Assembly (NCBI GenBank): GCA_963924555.1
Contig: OZ004594.1
Coordinates: 6,727,563 to 6,791,562, forward strand
DNA length: 64,000 bases
DNA from: Crambe crambe
Lineage: Eukaryota; Porifera; Demospongiae; Poecilosclerida; Crambeidae
Direction of reading: 5' to 3'
The notes below the pieces were generated by a model. It had not been told where the DNA came from and searched no databases. It saw only the letters and a list, made by a program, of their open reading frames with translations. The position numbers and the translations under genes were made by a program. How positions within the stretch are numbered: position 1 is the first letter of the stretch; each line of letters begins with the position of its first letter. Shown piece by piece: positions 3,500 to 33,115 of this stretch.

Positions 3500-3588
3500 C
3501 TACCCTTTACTCTCTGGGGTTAACCTAATAATTCTTTGATGTGGATTTTAATACACCTTGTGGTGAAGTAGTTTTTATTGTGCTTTAA
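3500..3588 (+). repeat. dispersed repeat copy, split by a MITE
   Basis: The stretch containing TCTCTGGGGTTAACCTAATA and the following bases down to GTAGTTTTTATT recurs near 38185-38255, with partial copies near 37775, 39660 and 40830. It ends where the MITE at 3589 begins, so the MITE entered an older dispersed repeat. Confidence 0.7.
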
Positions 3589-4148
3589 GGGTGCCAATAC
3601 ATAGTAACTGAGGCATGTGCTACTATAAGCACTAATTAACCACACAAACACTACCGCGCTAAAATAGCAGATAGTAAACCACAATAGTAGCAGCTGCTCT
3701 GGCACATCTAAAATCCATGCTAGCATGATGGGAATGAGCCAATATTTTGTGTACAATAACTACAAGGTAAGGTCTAAAAAGTTACGATTTGTTTTAGTTC
3801 ATATCTATTCTAGAATTTCCAGAATGCATGGTCTTGTGTGGATATATAGAAAAGTAAAATACAAATCAACAAAAACTCATCGTAATTTTGATAGAAATAT
3901 GTATAGGAAGCTTCATAACAAAAATTAGCCATAGAATCCAAGCGGTCTTTGAGATGCAACGCAGTTTACCTTAAGAATGAAATCGGTTGTAACATCTGTG
4001 AAAATCATCAGGCACTCTTCATTTTTGGTGTGTGTAGTACTATTTTTTAGTATGTAATAACTTGGTCCAAGTTAGATGTCTCTAAGGCAAATAGTTTTAA
4101 AGCTATTCTTCCATAGCAACCATGCGTGGGCGGGATGTATCGGCACCC
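3589..4148. mobile_element. MITE-like element with TTAA target duplication
   Basis: The ends are inverted: TTAA then GGGTGCCAATACAT on the left, ATGTATCGGCACCC then TTAA on the right. TTAA flanks both sides (3585-3588 and 4149-4152). Length is 560 bp and there is no credible ORF; the small ORFs inside are AT-rich noise. TTAA duplication is known for piggyBac and Kolobok families. The GGG terminus fits neither with certainty. Confidence 0.7.
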
Positions 4149-4559
4149 TTAATAGAGGAGATTCATTGTGGATGATTATGAAAATGTTCTGGACAATTAC
4201 TACTTAAGGAGTCAGAAAATCAAGGAAAGCAAGATCTGGAACAAGTCACCATCGTCATCACTATCTAAAACCAAGGTTAAGGTTACGGTGCAATGTTTGC
4301 TCATGAATATTCATAAGATTTAAAAAAAATTGTTTTTGTGACTATAGCAACAGTTAAGAAACTGTAATTCACAACAATGAAAGTTTATTACAACTGCTAA
4401 ATACTTAACAAATTATAGATCTTAGCTGTTACTGGTTCTCCTGATAAGTGACCGTGGAGAATTACAGGTAGGCATAAAGTCCAGTCGGCAAATTGTGCCC
4501 ATATTAATCACTCCAGCTCAGCTTTCTTGCCAAATCCTTGTAGACTTTCTCTTTCTTGA

Positions 4560-4704
4560 GGGCGGCTCGAAGACATTATAGTTCTGTGGGCTAAAAGTGT
4601 AAAGAAATCTAGCTAGGTAAGCTTGTCGAGACTCGTCTCTCCATGATTCAGGCCTTTAACTTCTGAAACGCTAGCTTTCTTCAGGAAAACTTTTCGAGCC
4701 GCCC
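4560..4704. repeat. short inverted-repeat element upstream of the Mutator/YqaJ gene
   Basis: GGGCGGCTCGAA at 4560-4571 is repeated inverted and perfectly at 4693-4704. The 121 bp between the arms hold no ORF. It may be a small MITE, or simply part of the promoter region of the gene starting at 4868. Confidence 0.4.
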
Positions 4705-4867
4705 CGCCCCTGCCTTCCTACAATTGGAATAGTCTATTTCTGTGCAGATTGGCTGTATGCTTTAGCTTAAAAATGCCGACTTAACTGTAGACCGCAAAGC
4801 CCGCTAAAATGCTCACAAAGCGCGCGAGATCGCCCACGCATTCAGGCAGGAAAAATTAATATTCATA

Positions 4868-7767
4868 ATGGCAAATGAGAAGAACAAGAATAATAAGAGA
4901 AAAAGTAGTCACAGGCATGTGTATGTAAAGAAGAAGATACCTAGAAAGGGAAATAGAAAAAAAAAACATACTGAGACAGAGGAACGACACAGAGACATGG
5001 ACACTGAGCAGCAAACAGACATGGACACTGACACAGTACAAAGAGTAAGCATTGAAGGGAGCAGAATAATAAACATGGAAAAATTACAACAATACACTGA
5101 CAATTTGACCAAACACTCCACCACTTGTGCCGGCTCTATCACTTTGAGTGGAGAAACTAGAGATGGCTTGGCATCTATCCTCACAGCTCGCTGTAACACT
5201 TGCGAGCATGCCATCAGATTTGAGATTGCCAAGAAAGTAAAGGGTCCAAGAGGTTACCACAGGTAGGCACTGATATACATGAAGAAAGAGAGTAATATTT
5301 TCTTTCTGGACAGGTGGGAGTGTAACCTTGCTGCTGTGTGGGGACAAATGTCTACTGGAGGTGGACATAGTCAGTTAGAGGAAACCATGAGCGTTTTTGG
5401 AGTACCTGTGATGACGAAGACCAGCTTCATTGAAACTGAAAAAGATATAGGGGAGCTATGGAAGAAGGAGCTGAAAGAGTCGATGCTGAAGGCTGGACGA
5501 GAAGAGAAACAGCTGGCAATAGAGAAGAAGTCCTTCCATGAAGATGTTCCTGCTATCACAGTGATAGTCGATGGGGGTTGGAGCAAGAGAGCACATAAAC
5601 ATTCCTATAATGCGAAGTCAGGTGTGGGAATCATCATTGGCAAAGAGACTGGAAAGCTGTTATATCTTGGAGTGCGAAACAAGTACTGTCATGCTTGTGC
5701 CAGGAAAATTCCACATCACACCTGTTACTTGAACTGGACTGCATCGTCTTCCGAGATGGAAACCGACATCATTCTAGAGGGTTTCCTAGAGGCCGAGAAA
5801 GTTCATGGAGTTCGTTACACCAAGTTCATCGGGGATGGTGACAGCTCCGTGCATCCCACTCTCATCCAAAATGTACCAGGATGGGGTTTTGCCATCAACA
5901 AGATAGAGTGTGCTAACCATGCATGCAAGTGCTATCGGGGTGCACTTGAACAGCTGGTGAAGAATAATCCCTCTTACAAGGGAACCAGAGGTCTCACAGT
6001 GAAAATGCGAAGGCGTCTAGTGAGTGCAGCCAGGTGTGCTATACGCATGAGGAGCAGAGAGTCTGACACCAAAAAGGCATTGACATCTCTCAGGAAAGAT
6101 CTTGCGAATGGACCTCGTCATTGCTTTGGCATCCACACCCAGTGTAACCCTGATTTCTGTACAACAGCAAGAGGCATGGCTCAGCAAGGTTCATCTTCAG
6201 GTAGTGGGAGTGGTGACTGTGAAGAGGAGCGTCATGGTGGTGCTGATGGGGGATGTGGTGGTGCTGGTGGAGAGGATCATACTGACAGTGAGAGCGATAT
6301 TGAAGGTAATGTCACACCTGCAAAATCAAATAGTCATCGTCATAGATACTTAGTCAGAACAATGGCTAGGGGTTGACCTAATTAATGATTATAGGAGAGG
6401 TTGTAATGTAACCAAGGACTTATCTTTAGCTTAAATTTTTAGGGGTTATTAGTGATCAAGAGGTGATGTGGAGAGATACGCTTGCAGATGACAATCCTGC
6501 TATAGAGGAAGAAATACGACGAGGTGAACCCACACCAGTCGAAGTAGACCCAAGTCTTCTACATGATGTACAAGCTACAGTCAGCAGGCTTGTAGGAAAA
6601 GCCAGTCAACTACTAGGAAATTGCACAACCAATTTAGCAGAATGCTGGATGCATATCAGGTCCAAGTTCGATGGTGGAAAGGTTATAAACCGATCCCAAA
6701 GTGGCTCATGGCAGCACAGGTGCATGGGGGCTGGATTGCGCCAGAACATGGGAAGACAGTGGGGGCCAGAGATTTGGAGAAAGATGACCACTACTTCTCC
6801 AAACAAAGTTTACACCAACACAGCAGATCGTTTGGCCAAGAGAGTGGAGAGAGACAGAAAAAGAAAGGCATCAGAAGAAGCAAAAGAATCCCGACGAAGA
6901 AGCAAATACATGCGAATAGATGACACACCTGCAGCTCGCAAGGCCTACAGTAGACATGACGATTGTATTTCACCGGATGAAGTTACTGACGATATTCCCC
7001 CAGAACAATTGAAGCAGCTAGCAGATAGTTTTTACAAGACGAAAGTAGCCATTACTACAGAAAAAGGTCAAGAGATTGAACGACACACACGAAATCAGGC
7101 TGATAATGGGCAATGGATGATGGAAAGAAGATTAAGACTTACAGCATCGAGAGTGGGAGGCATAGCAAAGATGAGAGAAACAACAAAAAAAGGTAATAAA
7201 GTCAAGGATTTACTGTACAGTAATTTTAGGGGTAACAAGGCCACACAATATGGCTCAGCAAAGGAAGATGAAACGATACTACAATATATCACTTACCAAC
7301 GAAGGAATGGTCATCCTGATTTGAAAGTTGACAGGTGTGGACTCTTTGTATCCCTCACCAATCCTTGGTTAGCAGCAAGCCCGGATGGTTCAGTGAACGA
7401 TCCAAGTGATTCAAACCACTCTTTGGGATTGGTAGAGATAAAGAATCCTTTTAGTGTAAAGGAGAAAACCCTAGCTGAAGCCAGTACCAGCTCAACATTC
7501 TGTTTGGTGAGGGAAAAAAATATGTACAAGTTGAAACGTCGACATGACTACTATTTTCAAGTTCAATGCCAGCTCTATTGCACAGACAGAAATTGGTGTG
7601 ACTTTGTACTCAGGACCAACAAGGACATTCACATAGAACGAATTTACAGGGACAAAAAATGGTGGGGAGTACAAATGACCAAGCTCAGGAAGTTCTACTT
7701 CACTGCTCTCTTGCCTGAATTGGCATGTCCAAGACACAGAAAGGGAGGCATCAGGGAATCTCAATAG
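4868..7767 (+). CDS. Mutator-like transposase fused to YqaJ-type exonuclease
   Basis: Three exons (4868-5262, 5314-6305, 6443-7767) join in phase 2 and phase 1 with GT-AG introns of 51 and 137 nt and give about 903 residues. The N-terminus is Lys/Arg-rich. Exon 2 carries the Mutator-like core: ITVIVDGGWSKR (first Asp), CHACARK, then FIGDGDSS (second Asp). The likely catalytic Glu, NLAECWMHIRSKFDGG, is in exon 3, which also encodes a YqaJ/lambda-exonuclease-like domain with GSAKEDETI, ASPDGS, LVEIKNP (the ExK of PD-(D/E)xK nucleases) and FQVQCQL. All motifs look intact. A Gly/Asp-rich linker lies just before the second intron. YqaJ-family nucleases trim DNA ends 5'-3'; pairing one with a transposase suggests end processing during transposition, which is inference. 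No flanking terminal repeats were found. Confidence 0.8.
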
Positions 7768-23067: not shown

Positions 23068-23345
23068 CTCAACAGCACTCAACCTAGCCACAACGTGAAA
23101 ACGTTCTCCAAGTCTGTGACCCCTCCCCACTTCACCGGGAGCAACAAAACTCCACAAAGTACCATGGAATTATTTAAGTCAAACCCCCCACCCAACTAAA
23201 AGGTACAGCAAGGAAAGAAACTGAACCAAACCCTGGCTATAGTACCTAGCCACAACATGAACACATTCTCGACCCCTCCCCAGTTCACCCTTGCCAAGAA
23301 GATGGGAGCAGCAGGACTCCATAAAGTACCATGCAATTAAGTCAA
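23068..23345. repeat. tandem repeat flanking the large transposon (left side)
   Basis: Two copies of a unit of roughly 190 bp contain CCTAGCCACAACRTGAA, CCCCTCCCC and AAAGTACCATG. A partial copy in the same orientation lies at 30776-30888 on the other side of the transposon, so the element probably inserted into this array. Confidence 0.65.
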
Positions 23346-23396
23346 ATTTCGGTTCCATAGAATATGTCACTAAATTGTAAAAATTCCTACTATATA

Positions 23397-23861
23397 TAGG
23401 GAAGATTTAGTGACAAATTGTACTGAATCTCTCCTAATAATATAGGGAAGATTAGTGCCAGGTGCACTAAATCTCTCCTATAATAATATAGGGAAGATTT
23501 AGTGCCAGGTGCACTAAATCTCTCCTATAATAATATAGGGAAGATTTAGTGCCAGGTGCACTAAATCTCTCCTATAACAATATAGGGAGGATTTAGTGCC
23601 AGGTGCACTAAATCTCTCCTAAAATATAGGGAAGCTTTAGTGCCAGGTGCACTAAATCTCTCCTATGATAATGTATTATAGGGAAGCTTTAGTGCAAGGT
23701 GCACTAAATCACTCCTATAATAATATAGGGAAGATTTAGTGCAAGGTGCACTAAATCTCTCCTATAGTAATATAGGGAAGATTTAGTGCAAGGTACACTA
23801 AATCTCTCCTATGATAATATAGGGAGGATTTAGTGCCAGGTGCACTAAATCTCCTGTGATT
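23397..23861. repeat. left minisatellite array of the transposon
   Basis: About ten units of 46-50 bp, each with the imperfect palindrome TTAGTGCCAGGTGCACTAA followed by ATCTCTCCTATAATAATATA. A lone related copy (TTTTAGTGCACAGGCACTAAA-like) lies at about 24067. Confidence 0.9.
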
Positions 23862-24338
23862 CAAGCTAATAAGTCTCCAATTTCATCCCCCGTACTTATG
23901 TATCTGCTCATACCCTAGCACTTGTAGAACCCACAACACCTATGATGTCATATAAAGTGTGGAATGTAGTAAGCACTCATGTGCTCACATACATATCAAT
24001 TTTTATATGTACAGATTACATGCATCCAATAGGGGATATTCAGTCACTACACATCATAGCAGGAGGGTTTTAGTGCACAGGCACTAAATAAAAAATTCGT
24101 AAAAAGTAGCTGGAGCCTCAGACTGAGAGAACTATTCACTCAGCCTTCTATCACTGTTTCTGACTGATCATGAGACAATTGAAAGTGAAAATAAAAGTGA
24201 AAGTATTGACTACAGGGTAGATTAATTGTGTGCAAACAGTCTAAGAAGGTAGCCTGAGACTGTTACTTAAGGGCATCCAGCTTCTGTTATAAAGTAAGGC
24301 CTGCCATCAATAATCAAGAGTTGGTCAAGTTTAGCAAG

Positions 24339-26634
24339 ATGGAAATTGATGAAGCAGATTTAGGTGATAATATGGATCAAGAAGTTTCTCCATATTTAAG
24401 TGATGAGGTGGATGAAGATTTTTTAAGAGATGAAAAAACCCCAGATTTAAATGATGAAGGTATGTGTACTCATATCTATCATTTACTTGAACAAGCTTAT
24501 TTACATATTGTAGAACCAATAGAGTGTGAAAACTGTGGCGATCAAGCCACAGTTTTTTGTGAGCAGTGCAATAGTCACCACTGCAAGCAGTGTTCTAGTT
24601 TAAGGCACAAACATGTCACAAAAAAAAATCACACTATCAAGAATCTACGTGATCAGAAGAAAGGTAATTCAATGGTCTGTTTGTAAAATAGAAAATATAA
24701 TCTAAATCATGGATAAATCCTTTATTCAGTATTTTCCACATCAATTGACCTTATGGTTCATGGCATAATGGCCAAAAAATTCAATATTGCACATGGCAAA
24801 CAAATGCAATAGCTGCTGCTCTTAATGGGAAAGACAGTCTAATCATCCAGCCAACTGGCACAGGAAAGAGCATGTGTTATACTATACCTCATCTTTATGA
24901 CAACAAGACTGCCATCGTTATATCTCCAACAATCAGCTTAATGACTGATCAAGTGAAGAAATTAGTGAGACTAGAAATTCCAGCAACACTACTAGGTTCA
25001 GCACAGAGTAAGGATGTCACTCAACAGATGCAAAATAATGAATTCCGTATAATCTTCTCTACTCCGGAATCATTCTATGACACCAAAAAAAGAAGTCCCC
25101 GCCAAGTGTTTATGGAGATGGCAAACAGGGGGGAAATCTGCTTGATAGCCATTGACGAAGCCCATCTAATCATTAGCTGGCAGTCATTCAGGTTAGTGGC
25201 TAATGGTCGCATATCTGAGTCTCAATGTATCTTTGCATAGACCTGAATATGGCTATCTTAGTGAGCTGGGTTCCCTATTCACTAACATACCCCTCATGGC
25301 TTTTACAGCTACTGCCACCCCCTACATTCGAGATCAGCTTATCGATATCCTGAGAAATCCAATCAAAGAAATCAGCAGTGTAAACCGACCTAATATTGCA
25401 TTGTATGCATATGAGCTAACAAAATTAGCATGAAATGGTTAGTGGTTAATTAAAGCTTGGTAGCTTATACAACTAGTCTTGATATACATATATTTCTGTA
25501 TAGTGTCTTCAGCTTTCACTGTATGTAGCTGCCTGCTACCAACTTATTGAGTTAACATCTTAGGAGTAGCCTATCAGCTATAAATAACCTCTGAGTCAAA
25601 ACTTTATTATTCACCATACAGTGATATACAGAAGTGTATTATAGCAAGTTACTTCACTCGTAGGCTATATATTTTACTTGCCTTCAGCTCATAAAAGTAT
25701 GGCCACGTGCCCTACTCGAACTTGTGAAATAACTTACCATATTCCACTCTGACTCGTGTAATAAGATAGTATTACATACCTATGTAGGTACTCAATCCTA
25801 TTACACACAAGTTGCCGATCATCTTGGACAGCTAATTGGAACCAGCAGAACAATTGTGTGAAGGATGTAGCACCTTTGGCTATAGCTCTATGTGAGAAGG
25901 GAATAAAAAGTTGGAGCTACCATGGCAAGAATATGTCTACACATGACAAGGTGAAAGCTGTGGATAACTGGTGTCCTGAGGACTCAAGTATCCAGGTAGA
26001 TAAATCACTATCTTTATTATAATAATGAATGCTAAATAATTGGTTTTGTTGAATACTCAGGTCATGGTGTGCACAACTGCATTTGGGATGGGAGTTGATG
26101 TGCCCAATGTAGATGTCATTATCAGGATTGGATGTCCCTCATCACTCGAAGAGTTAGTCCAGGAATTTGGGAGGGCTGGTAGAGATGGTCGCAAAGCAAA
26201 AGGTCAGCTTAATGTGTGTTACACAACATGTATGTATATAATATATTGTATTGTAGGAATTTTGCTTTTCAATGAAAGTGATCTACAGCATGCACTGTAT
26301 TGGTGCAAGGACAAAAGTCAAGAATACCAGCAGAGATTATTAAGCGATTTCCAAGCTGTCTGGAGGTAAAATTTTCCTAAATCAAACCAGATTTAATTGA
26401 TGTTTTTATGTTCTTTTAATTAGATATGCACTAGCAAATCATTATGGCAAATGCAGACGAAGCATTATTTTGGAACATTTTGATGAGGATTTGCCTGAGA
26501 ATCAAGTGGAAGTATTAGATGAATGCTGTGATGTATGCTTCCAGTCAAGCTCAGTTGAAATGGTGGATTGTTCACATGAGATGAAATCCATTATTCAAGC
26601 AGTCAAGGACAGACCCAACAAAGGAGAAAAGAAG
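24339..26634 (+). pseudogene. transposon gene, 5' part: B-box zinc finger and RecQ-like helicase
   Basis: Exons 24339-24459 and 24514-24663 give an acidic N-terminus and a B-box (CENCGDQATVFCEQC..HHCKQC..H). Exon 24730-25191 starts the helicase (QPTGTGKS, IAIDEAH), exon 25241 onward has FTATATP and SVNRPNI, exon 25787-25995 the second helicase lobe, and exons 26061-26202 and 26257-26365 carry TTAFGMGVD and FGRAGRDGR. Exon 26424-26634 adds the RecQ-type zinc site (YALA..CRR..IL.HF....CCDVC). Introns are 48-66 nt, GT-AG and phase-consistent. Breaks: a one-base loss near 24794 just before WQTNAIAAAL, an in-frame TGA at about 25431 and a frame change near 25860. The helicase motifs are otherwise complete. 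Confidence 0.75.
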
Positions 26635-26682
26635 GTAAGACATCAATGTGATATCTGTAGTGTGAATTCATAATATCCACAG

Positions 26683-29439
26683 ATAGCAGAGTGGTTACGT
26701 GGCTATGCTGGTAGTTCATCAGTGAGGAATTTCAGTGATGAATCTTCATCTATCAGTGAGGAGTCATCTCTTGGTGTTGGAGCTCATCTCCATCTGACAG
26801 AGACAGAATGGAGATTACGTGTCTGCCAAGCATGGCTGATAGGGCTTCTTGAACGAACCATGCAGCTTGGCTTTGGTTATGGTCGTATCAAGAATATGAT
26901 TTTCAACTCATACAGTCTCACAGAAGCTGGACAAAAGTATGCAGTAGAATCACATTCTGTTGAACTGCCAAAGCTCAGAAGCAACATGAAGTCTGCTCGA
27001 GTTCAGACTGACAGCTCTCCAGATGCTACCAAACACACCAGACAGAGCAAAGGGACACATCTTCTCCCTGTCCTTACTAAACTTCTCTCTTCCAAGGATA
27101 ACTGGTACATAATTGAACAAAATGAGGATTATCACTTTCCAGGAAAACTTCGCTTACCATATCCTCATCGTCTTGGATTTGTACCTGACATAACCACCCT
27201 CTCATTCTATGTCAAGGATGATGAACACTTTCTGTTCAATGACATACAGATAGGCAAAGGCAAATCAAGAGCTGCACGAAAGGTGCTTCTATCAGTGGAT
27301 GGGAAGGAGGAAGAACTCTACTACCGTATAGCACCATGTGGAGGAGCTAAATATCGTCCAATTGAAGGTTGTTCCTTCACTATATCCACTAGGGAACACC
27401 GAAGATGCCCAGATCACCCAGATTCTCACTTGACTCTTCAAGAATGTCAAGTGGAGTTCGTTTATGTCTGGCCTGAAAAAGATGAAGACAAGAGGAGGTG
27501 GCTGTCAGGTATACTTAGAAGAGGGACTATGGAAGCAGATAATCTCCACAATCACCCTCTCCATGGCTCTACCAAAGTACCATCTAAAGTAGTACATGAT
27601 ATTCAACAAGCTTTAAAACTAGATCCAACTCTGAAGACACATGATCTTATGACTGGTGAGTATCCGATAATTATTATAAGCTAGATTTTCATTTAGTGAA
27701 CACATCTGCAGGTAAAGGAATGCCATACATGCCAGCAGCTGCTTCATTCTCAGCAGCACATGAAGGACGGATTCAGAACATCAGAGCTGCTACCCTCAGA
27801 GAAACTAAAGAAGAAAGAAAACCTGGAGTTGTTATCTTGAATTTTGAAGATGAAAGTGTTCGCTACGACAAAAGCCAGAAGGAGCACTTGGGATACTCAG
27901 GTATGAAGCATGTTGTTTTGGATATTATGAACAGCTTCCACCTTACTTCTATTGAAGCCCTCACACATGTTATATATCTTTCAGAACATATGGAAGAGTA
28001 TTTTGAACTTGGGCATGAATACATTTGTGATTACTCCCTCAATCCTTCTTACACATGGGTCTTGGCAATGAGTCCAATAATGGCTGGCATTTTGAGCAAA
28101 GCAGAATGTGTTGAAGTGGATGCAACATTTAGAGCTTCAATTGAACTGGAATATCTACTCAATGTTGTTTGCTTGACTATGACTCTCTTTTATGTAAGTT
28201 TTTCAATACACAACAGGAATTCATACAGGATTTTGGGATTGGAGAGGGGAGGTATGCAGGGCTTAATAAATGTATACCTATTATTATTATTATCATCATC
28301 ATCATCATCATTATTATTATTATTGGAGGGGCCTCATCATCATCATCATCATTATTACTGGAGGGGCCTCATCATCATCATCATCATCATCATTATTATT
28401 GGAGGGGCCTCATCATGATCATCACCATCATTATTATTATTATTGGAGGGGCCCTACTACACAAATGTGAAAATTTATCCCTTCAGGGACTGTGGTCGCT
28501 CGAGTTAGGATGAATAAGCTGGATGCTGCATCCTACACACATGCATTTAATGCAATTTTCAGAAAAATGAAGGAAAAGCATCCCACCTTTGGAGTTGGAA
28601 AAACCTTGAAGGGAATCATAACAGATTGGTCAGACACACAGTTACATGGGCTCAGAGATGCAATAGGAGAGGAGATTACCAGTCAAGTGGTGAAAGGATG
28701 TCAGGTTAGGGAGAAAATACATGTTAATACAAAATGTAATGTCTTATGTTTATAGGTCCACTTCCAGCGTTCAGTGAAACGTGTTAGCGACAAAATTAAC
28801 AAAGGCTTGTCCACCAAGGCATACAAAGCATTCACAACTATTGCCTATGCAATACCTGCAGCCAAGACCAAGAAAGATGTAGAGTCCTTATTTCGAGTTC
28901 TGTCTGGAACTGAGCCACTCTCAGTAGCAATCAGTGTCTTGCCCAATCCATCAACATTGAAGGAATACGAGTCCGAGCACAAAATGGAAAAATGGGAGCA
29001 GTGTTCGCATTGGTGTGAGTGGTGGATGCGACCAAACCACCTCAGTAAGACAACACTAGCTACAGTATGTATATGAAAAGCATAGGTGATCTTATATTTT
29101 TAATAGTGATGTTATGTGGATGCCACTCATCTATGGATCGTCAGCAATTTGAAGAACTCCCAACTTCTACAAACGCTGTTGAATCATATAATCGTTTTGG
29201 CAAACACAGACACAGACAGCCTCTCAAGGTAGCCATGATGGCCACTTACAAAGAGGACATGGCCAAAACCCTGGAAATCATGGCCAGTAGACAGGGTCTC
29301 ACAACTAGCATGATAATCAGTCAACTAGTGCACGTGCCAAGCGTTCATCCAAATAAAATCGTGCCCGCCAGAAACGTCTCCGAAGTGAGAATGATGATCC
29401 TGAAGGACCCCCAGATACAAAGAGAAAGTTTTTTTCCAG
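26683..29439 (+). pseudogene. transposon gene, central part: MULE-like transposase
   Basis: Exon 26683-27655 continues in phase from the helicase exon. Exons 27712-28193, 28487-28704, 28756-29044 and 29107-29439 follow. The DDE triad is visible: VEVDATFRAS (Asp), GIITDWSDTQLHGL (Asp), then CQ-VHFQRSVKR across an intron, and TSTNAVESYNR (Glu). The segment before it contains CGGAKYRPIEGC and a Cys/His stretch (RRCPDHPDSHLTLQECQ) that may be the DNA-binding part. A one-base loss near 28174 puts the end of exon 27712-28193 out of frame; in the shifted frame the junction to 28487 gives W-TVVARVRMN, which is what related transposases have. Further frame changes are likely near 29330 and in the T-run near 29430. 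Confidence 0.75.
28261..28460. repeat. intronic ATT/TCA microsatellite punctuated by GGAGGGGCC
   Basis: Runs of (ATT)n and (TCA)n are broken four times by GGAGGGGCC within the 28194-28486 intron. The His-, Ile- and Ser-rich ORFs predicted here are artefacts. Confidence 0.9.
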
Positions 29440-29545
29440 GTAGCTATTTTTGTATAATTTATAATCATACCATGGTCTAATTTCAATATTAGCTGCACAT
29501 TTTCCATGCATTATTTTAGACATGTATTGCTGTGTATACATGTAG

Positions 29546-30320
29546 GTGACACACCAGGTAGATCTACAAGCAAAAAACTAAGCCTCCGAAACAATGATTC
29601 AAATTCCTCTGGTAAGTACCTGCTCAGTGATTAATGTGATGCCAACATAACTACGGTTTAGCATATCTTTGTTTTTTTATGTTTGCTCTTTCTTTATTAA
29701 TTCCTAACAGCTCAAATGATTACTAATGACTGTCCATCACCAGAATATAAATGGTGGGTCAAGGAACTGGGCCTTCAGGAGTCTGAAAATCCAAACTCAA
29801 AAACAGAGAGGAGCTAACTGACTTACACATGAGCGCAGTAATTGCACTCTTCAATCGACAGTTTGAGGCTATGCCAAAGATGCTACAAACAATCATATTC
29901 CAGAAGCCAGATAAAGTGAGCAGGGCTTTGGACAATCACATTCAAATTCACTTCACCAATGGCCATTGGGTGGTGTCTCAACTACACGAAGGGACAGTGA
30001 ACCTATATGACAGTCTCAATGCTACTACAATTTCTGCTAACCTATCTGAGCAGATACAAGCCCTTTACTTCAAGGGAGCTGGTTCTGGTAGTGTCAGTCT
30101 CATCCCAGTCCAGAAACAGCCAAATGTGACAGATTGTGGACTATATGCCATAGCTAATACCACATCATTAGCATATGGGGAGGCTCCTGAAAAGAATTTG
30201 TATGATGAGAAAGAAATGCGGGACCACCTACTCTCCTGCTTTGAAGCAATGGTTCTCATTCCATTCCCCACTAAAAGTAGAAGTAGAAGGAAGACTAAAT
30301 CAATCGTACTGTGTATTTAG
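29546..30320 (+). pseudogene. transposon gene, 3' part: Ulp1-like cysteine protease
   Basis: Exons 29546-29611 and 29711-30320 continue the same gene in phase 1. The protease core has NGHWVVSQLH (His), VNLYDSLN (Asp), and PVQKQPNVTDCGLYAIA (Gln and Cys), the H-D-Q-C set of the Ulp1/SENP C48 family, which cleaves SUMO-like conjugates. C48 proteases are known passengers of MULE, CACTA and other transposons. One frame change lies near 29787, where QESEN and EELTDLHMS are in different frames. The protease frame itself is open to a stop at 30320. Confidence 0.75.
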
Positions 30321-30397
30321 TATTAAGGACATTAATTATTAATTTGAATGCATAGTGTATTGCTTCAGGTTTAAAGTACTCCCTGTCATTAAATAGG

Positions 30398-30741
30398 TGC
30401 ACCTTGCACTAAAGCTTCTCTATATTATTGTAGGAGAGATTTAGTGCACCTGGCACTAAATCCTCCCTATATTATTATAGGAGAGATTTAATGCACCTGG
30501 CACTAAATCCTCCCTATATTATTATAGGAGAGATTTAGTGCACCTTGCACTAAAGCTTCCCTATAATATATTATTATTATAGGAGAGATTTAGTGCACCT
30601 GGCACTAAAGCTTCCCTATATATTGTAGGATAGATTTAAAATTAATAATAGTGCTGTATTCCACTAGTAATATAGGAGAAATTTAGTGCCACATGTCACT
30701 AAATCTCCCCTATATATTATAGGGATTTATTTCATTTAGTG
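30398..30741. repeat. right minisatellite array of the transposon (inverted relative to the left)
   Basis: About six or seven units contain AGGAGAGATTTAGTGCACCT and GGCACTAAATCCTCCCTATA, the reverse complement of the left-hand unit. Units near 30410 and 30550 end in AAAGCTT, a variant also present in the left array (23630-23690). Confidence 0.9.
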
Positions 30742-30775
30742 AAAGTTTATATATGCCCTCAAATTTCCACTCAGC

Positions 30776-30888: not shown

Positions 30889-31074
30889 TAACCTAAAATC
30901 CATAGTTTATGGGGGGAAAAGGACACCCAAGGTGCAATAGTAGGTATTTACACCAAACTTAGTTATTTAGGTGGGTACTTATAATTATGGGGTACTATAA
31001 AAACGCCTGTGAATGATGCAGAAAGCAATGCTAGGACATTATTGTAAGCTTACTTAGCATAGTGATACTTACAG

Positions 31075-33115
31075 GTTAGGAGACCGAAGACAGGAATCCA
31101 CAAAAGGACGAGGGAAAGCAGGCAGAAGCAGGAGGAAGACTCAGTGACAGCTACCACACAATGAAATATTTTAATTCACACAATGAAATAATTAAAGAGT
31201 ACCTAGCTCAAATTTGACAATTTTGGCAAGGAACAACCATTACATAAATGACAACAAGAGTAGACTAGTTTGCTGCAAAAGTGTTCTTGTTCTATCTAGC
31301 TAGGTTGAATACTTACAGGACCGAAGACAGGAATCCACACAAGGGAACAGTCCCACGCAGGCAAACAGAGCAACAGCAGGCAGAAGCAGGAATCCACACA
31401 AGGGAACAGTCCCACGCAGGCAAACAGAGCAACGGCAGGCAGAAGCAGGAGGAAGACTCAGTGACAGCTACCACACAATTAATTCACACAATGAAATAAT
31501 TAAAGAGTACCTAGCTAGCAATAAAAGTCTCAAATTTGACAATTTTGCTAAGGAACAGCCATTACATAAATGATAACAAGAGCAGACTAGTTTGCTGCAA
31601 AAGTGTTCTTGTTCTATCTAGCTAGGTTGAATACTTACGGGACCGAAGACAGGAATCCACACAAGGGAACAGTCCCATGCAGGCAAACAGAGCAACAGCA
31701 GGAATCAACAGAAGGGAACAGTCCCACGCAGGCAAACAAAGCGGCAGGCAGAAGCAAGACTCAGTGACAACTACCACACAATGAAATATTTTAATTCACA
31801 TAATGATAATTCAAGAGTACCTAGCTAGCAATAAAAGTCTCAAATTTGACAATTTTGCCAAGGAACAACCATTACATAAATGACAACAAGAGTAGACTAG
31901 TTTGCTGCAAAAGTGTTCTTGTTCTATCTAGCTAGGTTGAATGCTTACAGGTTAGGAGACTGAAGACAGGAATCCAAAGAACAAGGGAACAGTCCCACAA
32001 CAGGCTGAAGCAGGAGGAAGACTCGGTGACGGCTACCACACAATGAAATATTTTAATTCACACAATGAAATAATTAAAGAGTACCTAGCTAGCAATAAAA
32101 GTCTCAAATTTGACAATTTTGCCAAGGAACAACCATTACATAAATGACAACAAGAGTAGACTAGTTTGCTGCAAAAATGTTCTTGTTCTATCTAGCTAGG
32201 TTGAATACTTACAGGACCGAAGACAGGAATCCACACAAGGGAACAGTCCCACACAGGCAAACAGAGCAACAGCAGGCAGAAGCAGGAATCCACACAAGGG
32301 AACAGTCCCACACAGGCAAACAGAGCAACGGCAGGCAGAAGCGGGAGGAAGACTCAGTGACAGCTACCACACAATGAAATATTTTAATTCACACAATGAA
32401 ATAATTAAAGAGTACCTAGCTAGCAATAAAAGTCTCAAATTTGACAATTTTACCAAGGAACAACCATTACATAAATGACAACAAGAGTAGACTAGTTTGC
32501 TGCAAAAATGTTCTTGTTCTATCTAGCTAGGTTGAATACTTACAGGACCGAAGACAGGAATCCACACAAGGGAACAGTCCCACACAGGCAAACAGAGCAA
32601 CAGCAGGCAGAAGCAGGAATCCACACAAGGGAACAGTCCCACACAGGCAAACAGAGCAACGGCAGGCAGAAGCGGGAGGAAGACTCAGTGACAGCTACCA
32701 CACAATGAAATATTTTAATTCACACAATGAAATAATTAAAGAGTACCTAGCTAGCAATAACAGTCTCAAATTTGACAATTTTACCAAGGAACAGCCATTA
32801 CATAAATGACAACAAGAGCAGACTAGTTTGCTGCAAAAGTGTTCTTGTTCTATCTAGCTAGGTTGAATACTTACAGGAATCCACACAAGGGAACAGTCCC
32901 ACGCAGGCAAACAGAGCAACAGCAGGCAGAAGCAGGAGGAAGACTCAGTGACGGCTACCACACAATGAAATATCTTAATTCACACAATGAAATAATTAAA
33001 GAGTACCTAGCTAGCAATTTAACAATTTGGCCAAGGAACAACCATTACATAAATGACCACAAGAGTAGACTAGTTTGCTGCAAAAGTGTTTCTTACCAGA
33101 AGAAGGCCAGCAAAT
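31075..33115. repeat. 331-bp tandem repeat array, about six units
   Basis: The landmark GTTCTTGTTCTATCTAGCTA occurs at about 31282, 31612, 31915, 32178, 32509 and 32840, so spacing is 331 bp where units are full and shorter where deleted. Some units carry an internal direct duplication of about 59 bp (GAATCCACACAAGGGAACAG...). Units at 32177 and 32508 are nearly identical, a sign of recent amplification. The repeated ORF in each unit is not credible because 331 is not a multiple of three. Confidence 0.9.

Follow-up and report, generated by a model that had tools for sequence, protein, structure and literature searches.

The window analysed here, a stretch of 64,000 nucleotides from the sponge Crambe crambe (C17:6727563-6791562, in a genome of 143 Mb and 119 contigs), holds a DNA transposon with one spliced gene, in which a RecQ helicase precedes a putative Mutator-like element (MULE) transposase (Table 1). 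An earlier note on this DNA had placed an element at 23368-30741; the element is indeed present, and its bounds are corrected to 23351-30758 by the edges that it has in common with a copy on contig C8 (C8:3680911-3687886) and by the duplication at its flanks. The C8 copy is itself flanked by an exact 9-bp repeat, GCGTAGAAA. When the flanks in the window are closed with one copy of the duplication, the joined sequence can be aligned, if gaps are allowed, with the next unit of a local repeat, a unit of which was split by the insertion. The terminal inverted repeats of the window element consist of imperfect ends and inverted arrays.

The gene model (24339-30320) comprises 15 exons with a conceptual read-through of 1516 residues, in keeping with the roughly 1,500 residues proposed earlier, and the domains follow in the order acidic/B-box, RecQ, Cys/His linker, predicted Mutator-type DDE transposase and Ulp1. 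About 14 exons in consistent phase had been claimed. All 14 introns of the model are GT-AG and the phases are compatible, splice sites having been chosen by hand with phase and homology considered; however, there are 15 exons, and their phases join only when four frame breaks (near 24793, 25856, 28172 and 29785) and an in-frame TGA (25431-25433) are read across. Because of these four breaks and the stop codon, the window copy is dead.

On the plus strand of the window, Pfam matches occur in the order B-box (PF00643, 24.3 bits versus a cut-off of 24.1), DEAD (75.7 versus 26), Helicase_C (45.9 versus 23.5), RecQ_Zn_bind (26.5 versus 25) and Peptidase_C48 (PF02902, 22.3 versus 20.7). The B-box and the Ulp1 protease of the earlier note are thus borne out, with the H-D-Q-C residues of the latter assigned by eye. 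The helicase, said there to have a full set of RecQ motifs, has its RecQ Pfam parts above cut-off, but motifs 0 and IV are damaged. Exon 9 of the window gave no convincing Pfam family, and the label FLYWCH/WRKY-like for its linker was given by eye; the Cys/His columns of this linker are invariant in the relatives described below, one of the six shared Cys residues being Arg in the window, and RQC scores above cut-off in relatives P0127 and P0130.

Table 1. Coordinates of the transposon, its gene and its ends, counted from the first letter of the window.
Feature	Position	Strand	Details
Whole element	23351..30758	+	7408 bp; termini GGTTCC.../...ATGCCC; edges common to C8 copy
Left target-site duplication	23342..23350		9 bp, TCAAATTTC
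Right target-site duplication	30759..30767		9 bp, TCAAATTTC
Left array	23405..23853		~47-bp repeats, palindromic core in most; nine cores TTTAGTGC..GCACTAAA, 23451-23849
Right array	30397..30621		inverted copies of the left ~47-bp repeat; four cores scored, 30440-30609
Exons 1-2: acidic N-terminus and B-box	24339..24663 (24339-24459, 24514-24663)	+	PF00643; splice model
Exons 3-8: RecQ core and RecQ zinc-binding domain	24730..26634 (24730-25191, 25241-25437, 25812-25995, 26061-26202, 26257-26365, 26424-26634)	+	PF00270, PF00271, PF16124 above cut-off; breaks near 24793, 25856; TGA at 25431
Exon 9: RQC/winged-helix-like region and Cys/His-rich linker ending LHNH	26683..27655	+	homologous in relatives
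Exons 10-13: predicted Mutator-type DDE transposase	27712..29439 (27712-28193, 28487-28704, 28756-29044, 29107-29439)	+	D, D, C..H, E in relatives' columns; break near 28172
Exons 14-15: linker and Ulp1/Peptidase_C48	29546..30320 (29546-29611, 29711-30320)	+	PF02902; break near 29785

Helicase and transposase share an unbroken frame in a second family of this genome. Searching the genome with exon 9 gave eight matches: four in three long copies of the window's own family (family 1), two that lie within long open frames and show 29% identity, and two in a single degraded place on C3. The first of these open frames, at C18:2943431-2947867 (minus strand), is one unbroken frame of 1479 codons from stop to stop (P0121), which runs from a ubiquitin-like domain ending LALKGG through a B-box-like cluster (assigned by eye; no Pfam match), RecQ and linker to a D-D-E transposase and an SH3/Tudor-like tail, and has every part of the window protein except Ulp1. 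No Met precedes the ubiquitin-like domain, and an upstream exon is therefore likely. As the earlier note had proposed, helicase and transposase are thus parts of one gene and one polypeptide; separate genes for the parts in other copies, which it had named as the result that would speak against the proposal, were sought, and what emerged was the reverse.

The C18 element that holds this frame measures 7562 bp, has inverted repeats of 442 bp (96%) and is inserted in a reverse-transcriptase frame, with the 9-bp sequence CTGGTAGAT at both flanks; joining the flanks with one copy of CTGGTAGAT restores the reverse-transcriptase frame. The joined 300-base target has 11 matching places, four of which continue uninterrupted across the site over bases 3-300 (identities of 100%, 100%, 96% and 94%); the others are the element's own two flanks, one half-covered match and four distant ones (68-71%). 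Termini and target duplication, both sought by the earlier note, were recovered for the window element (9 bp, TCAAATTTC), with uninterrupted targets for the C18 element. A near-identical broken copy of the latter (C8b) occupies C8 7561310-7568834, and the C18 and C8b copies of this second family differ at 11 of 909 synonymous and 17 of 3471 nonsynonymous sites, so that here, too, change per site is higher at synonymous positions (p 0.03). Degraded relics are present on C3 and elsewhere in the genome. One of these (C3:1512001-1521000, 3529-5236) stems from an additional RecQ-MULE family and is more closely related to the 1479-codon frame than to the copy in the window.

The same association recurs in databases. 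The transposase half of the 1479-codon frame, searched against 5.8 billion proteins, retrieved nine proteins, and RecQ parts are found in the same chain in all nine. Six of them (P0123, P0124, P0125, P0127, P0128 and P0129) combine Walker A and DEAH with D, D and E in a single chain; the remaining three are incomplete, P0122 and P0126 being without the N-terminal side and P0130 without the E. With the whole window protein as query, 940 proteins were retrieved, and among the 120 matches listed, which were mostly ordinary RecQs, P0001 was outstanding, as it combines a B-box-like cluster, RecQ and linker with the beginning of the transposase region. The transposase-Ulp1 half of the window protein had a sole match, P0131, a MULE protein without helicase. 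Any two of the twelve aligned proteins are 31-62% identical, except for a single pair at 76%. When viral contigs were scanned with the family alignment, ten loci matched within the first 96 residues of the query (the RecQ part).

The predicted RecQ identity is firm: TIGR00614 (recQ_fam, cut-off 219.8) was exceeded in all three relatives scanned (P0121, 314.7; P0124, 301; P0129, 327.4). In a RecQ tree the nine family members, including the window, form one clade (support 100/99) apart from 14 other RecQs; P0059 was left out of this tree, as were P0122 and P0126 (incomplete) and P0128 and P0091 (cut domain too long). In the midpoint-rooted drawing the first branch is that of the window copy; as this branch is also long, the position of the window copy within the clade is unsure.

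The ends of the protein vary more between families. Ten sequences reach upstream of the helicase (P0001, P0121, P0123, P0124, P0125, P0127-P0130 and the window), and four of these have a ubiquitin-like domain, which is absent from the window copy. PF00240 is matched by all four domains (best 4.9e-15; P0121 only 0.0041, below cut-off), and comparison with solved ubiquitins (~2e-11) gives a match that ends at the GG on residue 76, this GG being invariant in all four. At the other end, no Ulp1 was found in the 11 aligned relatives, three of which (P0001, P0126 and P0130) end before that point; five have the SH3/Tudor-like tail in its place, a name given by eye to a sequence with no convincing Pfam family. 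The Ulp1 part of the window is 31% identical to the C-terminus of P0131 (pairwise E 2e-16), and against solved structures it gave a weak match to Ulp1 (E 0.7).

Selection was assessed by comparing the window with the C8 family-1 copy on the model exons, gapped codons being omitted. Changes were counted at 37 of 920 synonymous and 52 of 3424 nonsynonymous sites, a ratio of nonsynonymous to synonymous change per site (pN/pS) of 0.38 (p 1e-5). The ratio was 0.34 for the RecQ segment (p 0.015), 0.45 for the transposase segment (p 0.028) and, in the frame of the model, 0.25 for the Ulp1 part (p 0.004), these p values being uncorrected for the five parts tested. Exons had also changed less than introns (89/4383, 2.0%, versus 50/1166, 4.3%; p 5e-5). 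Purifying selection thus acted on the gene as a whole and individually on the RecQ, transposase and Ulp1 segments, and from the pN/pS values together with the lower exon change it follows that the gene as modelled, the Ulp1 part included, was under selection before it decayed. Between positions 24339 and 30320 the two copies are also separated by 39 indel events, of which 19 are deletions and 20 are insertions in C8 and several span 8-15 bases; set against 139 substitutions in the counted exons and introns, this is unusually indel-rich decay.

For the superfamily, the relevant residues are shared throughout the lineage. The D, D, C and H are present in all 11 sequences that extend that far (the window copy and P0121-P0130) and the E in 10 of 10, and by analogy the conserved D, D and E would be the catalytic residues. 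Among five relatives scanned, taken from ten family cores, Transposase_mut (PF00872) was matched in three (best 1.9e-4) and MULE (PF10551) in one (0.012). An exact 9-bp duplication flanks three of the four two-ended insertions (window, C8 at 3.68 Mb and C18 at 2.94 Mb). Because of these duplications, the inverted ends, the D-D-C..H-E pattern and the weak Transposase_mut and MULE matches, we file the element as probably MULE-type, on a deep branch, and do not assign it to any named MULE family.

Our preferred reading, to which we give a probability of about 0.82, is that the window holds a dead copy of a MULE cut-and-paste transposon from a lineage in which RecQ was fused once, to judge by the tree, upstream of and in frame with the transposase to give one polypeptide. 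That the helicase-transposase fusion is real is shown by relatives with both in one unbroken reading frame. Several results weigh against this reading as a whole. The DDE transposase of the earlier note stands in so far as its D, D, C..H and E align with the conserved columns of the relatives, but the four window transposase exons gave no transposase family in Pfam when scanned singly, and after being joined, with an X to mark the break, they reached Transposase_mut at 0.003 and 17 bits, under the cut-off of 21. Two of the five relatives scanned were without a Transposase_mut match. The best of five hhalign comparisons with P0131 and MULEs of this genome aligned D, D and C..H at a probability of 23.6% (E 8.6e-4), the other four giving 0.2-2.1%, and the transposase profile had no match in PDB, which argues against a close tie to Mutator. 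No clean duplication was found around the C8 element at 7.56 Mb. For exon 9 alone the selection test was not significant (pN/pS 0.44, p 0.12), and the N-terminal part, with no synonymous and two nonsynonymous changes, has too few sites. Finally, of the intact copies that the earlier note wished to see, the same genome offers the unbroken 1479-codon frame of the second family, but the long family-1 copies are broken in three of three cases. On balance, its observation was largely right and its interpretation is partly supported.

The claim that all four parts belong to one gene is less than fully borne out: it is argued from the window family, Ulp1 having been found in none of the 11 aligned relatives. 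This absence, the SH3/Tudor-like tail at the same place in five of them, and a short family-1 derivative that retains the Ulp1 exon without helicase and transposase would all suit an arrangement in which helicase and transposase are fused, whereas Ulp1 has a gene of its own or belongs to a 3' unit of the element. We consider such an arrangement improbable: the junctions of exons 13, 14 and 15 are GT-AG and phase-compatible, the Ulp1 exon being in phase and its pN/pS in that frame indicating purifying selection, and P0131 is a single MULE chain that ends in an Ulp1-like stretch, although Pfam leaves that stretch unmarked. Gene capture is a known property of MULEs and RecQ is an ordinary host gene, so that an accidentally captured host RecQ fragment, similar to the transduplications of Pack-MULEs, might also be envisaged. 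It is very hard to reconcile with the single clade that the fused RecQs of nine members form apart from the 14 others (in a tree without host RecQs), with the same order of parts wherever both are present, or with the conserved motifs and the purifying selection on the RecQ segment. Kolobok elements have TTAA as target duplication and Academ elements one of 3-4 bp. An element of KolobokH or Academ type would account for the helicase, since RecQ is encoded in KolobokH (as described in the accessible text of PMC9587614) and is named for Academ (likewise PMC3627910), yet this identity too we regard as most improbable. The duplications in three insertions are of 9 bp, RecQ lies upstream of the transposase in the window, in P0121 and in the database proteins as opposed to downstream in KolobokH, and the weak transposase matches are to Transposase_mut and MULE. 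KolobokH itself was ruled out by the 9-bp, non-TTAA duplication and the gene order.

The ends of the element may bear on what the helicase does. Compared with 50 shuffles under a first-order chain, the left end (23351-23860) has 8 hairpin-capable palindromes versus 0.12, and the right end (30390-30758) has 5 versus 0.14; an interior control and one outside control have none. The ends of the second family have 3 and 2, versus 0.02 and 0.12 in shuffles. This suggests that the palindromic ends are a possible substrate of a RecQ-type helicase, as a correlation seen in these two families.

Under the preferred reading of a RecQ-MULE fusion, a role of the helicase in transposition, and roles of the ubiquitin-like domain and Ulp1, may be proposed from sequence. 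The Cys/His linker and winged helix would anchor the protein to the subterminal palindromic repeats, and the DDE domain would cut and join the ends with a 9-bp stagger, the single chain delivering an unwinding motor to the ends that this domain cuts. The tethered RecQ motor might melt or refold the hairpin-prone ends, unwind the donor break or joined target DNA, or do both, and host repair would complete the reaction after the unwinding. Conjugates of host proteins or of the protein itself could be the targets of the ubiquitin-like GG domain that sister families have and of the Ulp1 that the window family has, so that a modifier, released or stripped, would allow a long-lived protein-DNA complex to be tolerated or remodelled. 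The presence of the one in sister families and the other in the window family suggests that protein modification may matter at some step. A bolder version, which we offer as a doubtful one, is a self-sufficient one-chain transpososome with its own ubiquitin economy: the GG modifier would be cut off or conjugated, RecQ would unwind the palindromic ends and DDE would join them, the window lineage having swapped the ubiquitin-like donor for Ulp1 as an alternative solution to the same step.

Several features link the window lineage to MULE/MuDR elements, namely the 9-bp duplication, the inverted ends, a DDE domain with C..H and an upstream Cys/His domain, all of them MULE features; Ulp1 is likewise known from MULEs, and P0131 has an Ulp1-like C-terminus by its similarity to that of the window. 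By contrast, the lineage has RecQ upstream of the transposase together with a B-box, to which the sister families add a ubiquitin-like domain, and its transposase is only distantly similar to the Pfam Mutator models. Cellular RecQs (RecQ, BLM and WRN) share the helicase core, the zinc-binding domain and, in some members, RQC, but have no transposase and lie outside the clade in the RecQ tree. Academ and AcademH elements belong to another transposase superfamily and have a shorter duplication, although they too are helicase-bearing DNA transposons. In the accessible text of PMC10799480, helicase domains are traced to AcademH, KolobokH or Helitron. KolobokH elements are also DNA transposons with a RecQ helicase, but they have a Kolobok transposase with RecQ downstream, and the accessible text of PMC9587614 reports them from fungi only and mentions no B-box, ubiquitin-like domain or Ulp1. 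The accessible text of PMC4522978, PMC3985635 and PMC11457142 deals with other subjects and contains no RecQ-MULE fusion. Thus, RecQ in DNA transposons and Ulp1 in MULEs are known separately, and neither a RecQ-MULE fusion nor a ubiquitin-RecQ-transposase protein was found among the open-access literature matches listed, Repbase and subscription papers lying outside that coverage.

DDE cut-and-paste elements mostly depend on the host for DNA unwinding, whereas in this lineage a helicase is hard-wired to the transposase. Because the two are fused in one protein, the role of unwinding in cut-and-paste transposition becomes testable by single point mutations. The lineage is diverse and its RecQ parts form one clade, and the ubiquitin-like GG domain and Ulp1 in sister lineages would link transposition with host protein modification.

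Family 1 looks low-copy, since its right end recurs, to the last base, at at least five loci. In the stretch examined, the C5 copy has no left part and carries an internal deletion and an insertion; at C5:4963001-4979000, ~4.2 kb of extra sequence lies inside the Ulp1 exon, with six exon bases on both sides. The short derivative mentioned above (C18:3762001-3771000, ~4518-7575) is without helicase and transposase; what it retains is the Ulp1 exon, together with the right end and some of the left array. C11:2356001-2365000 has, up to ~6019, the family-1 right end and an oppositely directed piece of the Ulp1 exon, with an interior that otherwise shows almost no likeness to the window and no frame longer than 105 residues. 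Directly to the right of the window element, at 31070-33090, lies a repeat array with a spacing of ~250-330 bp.

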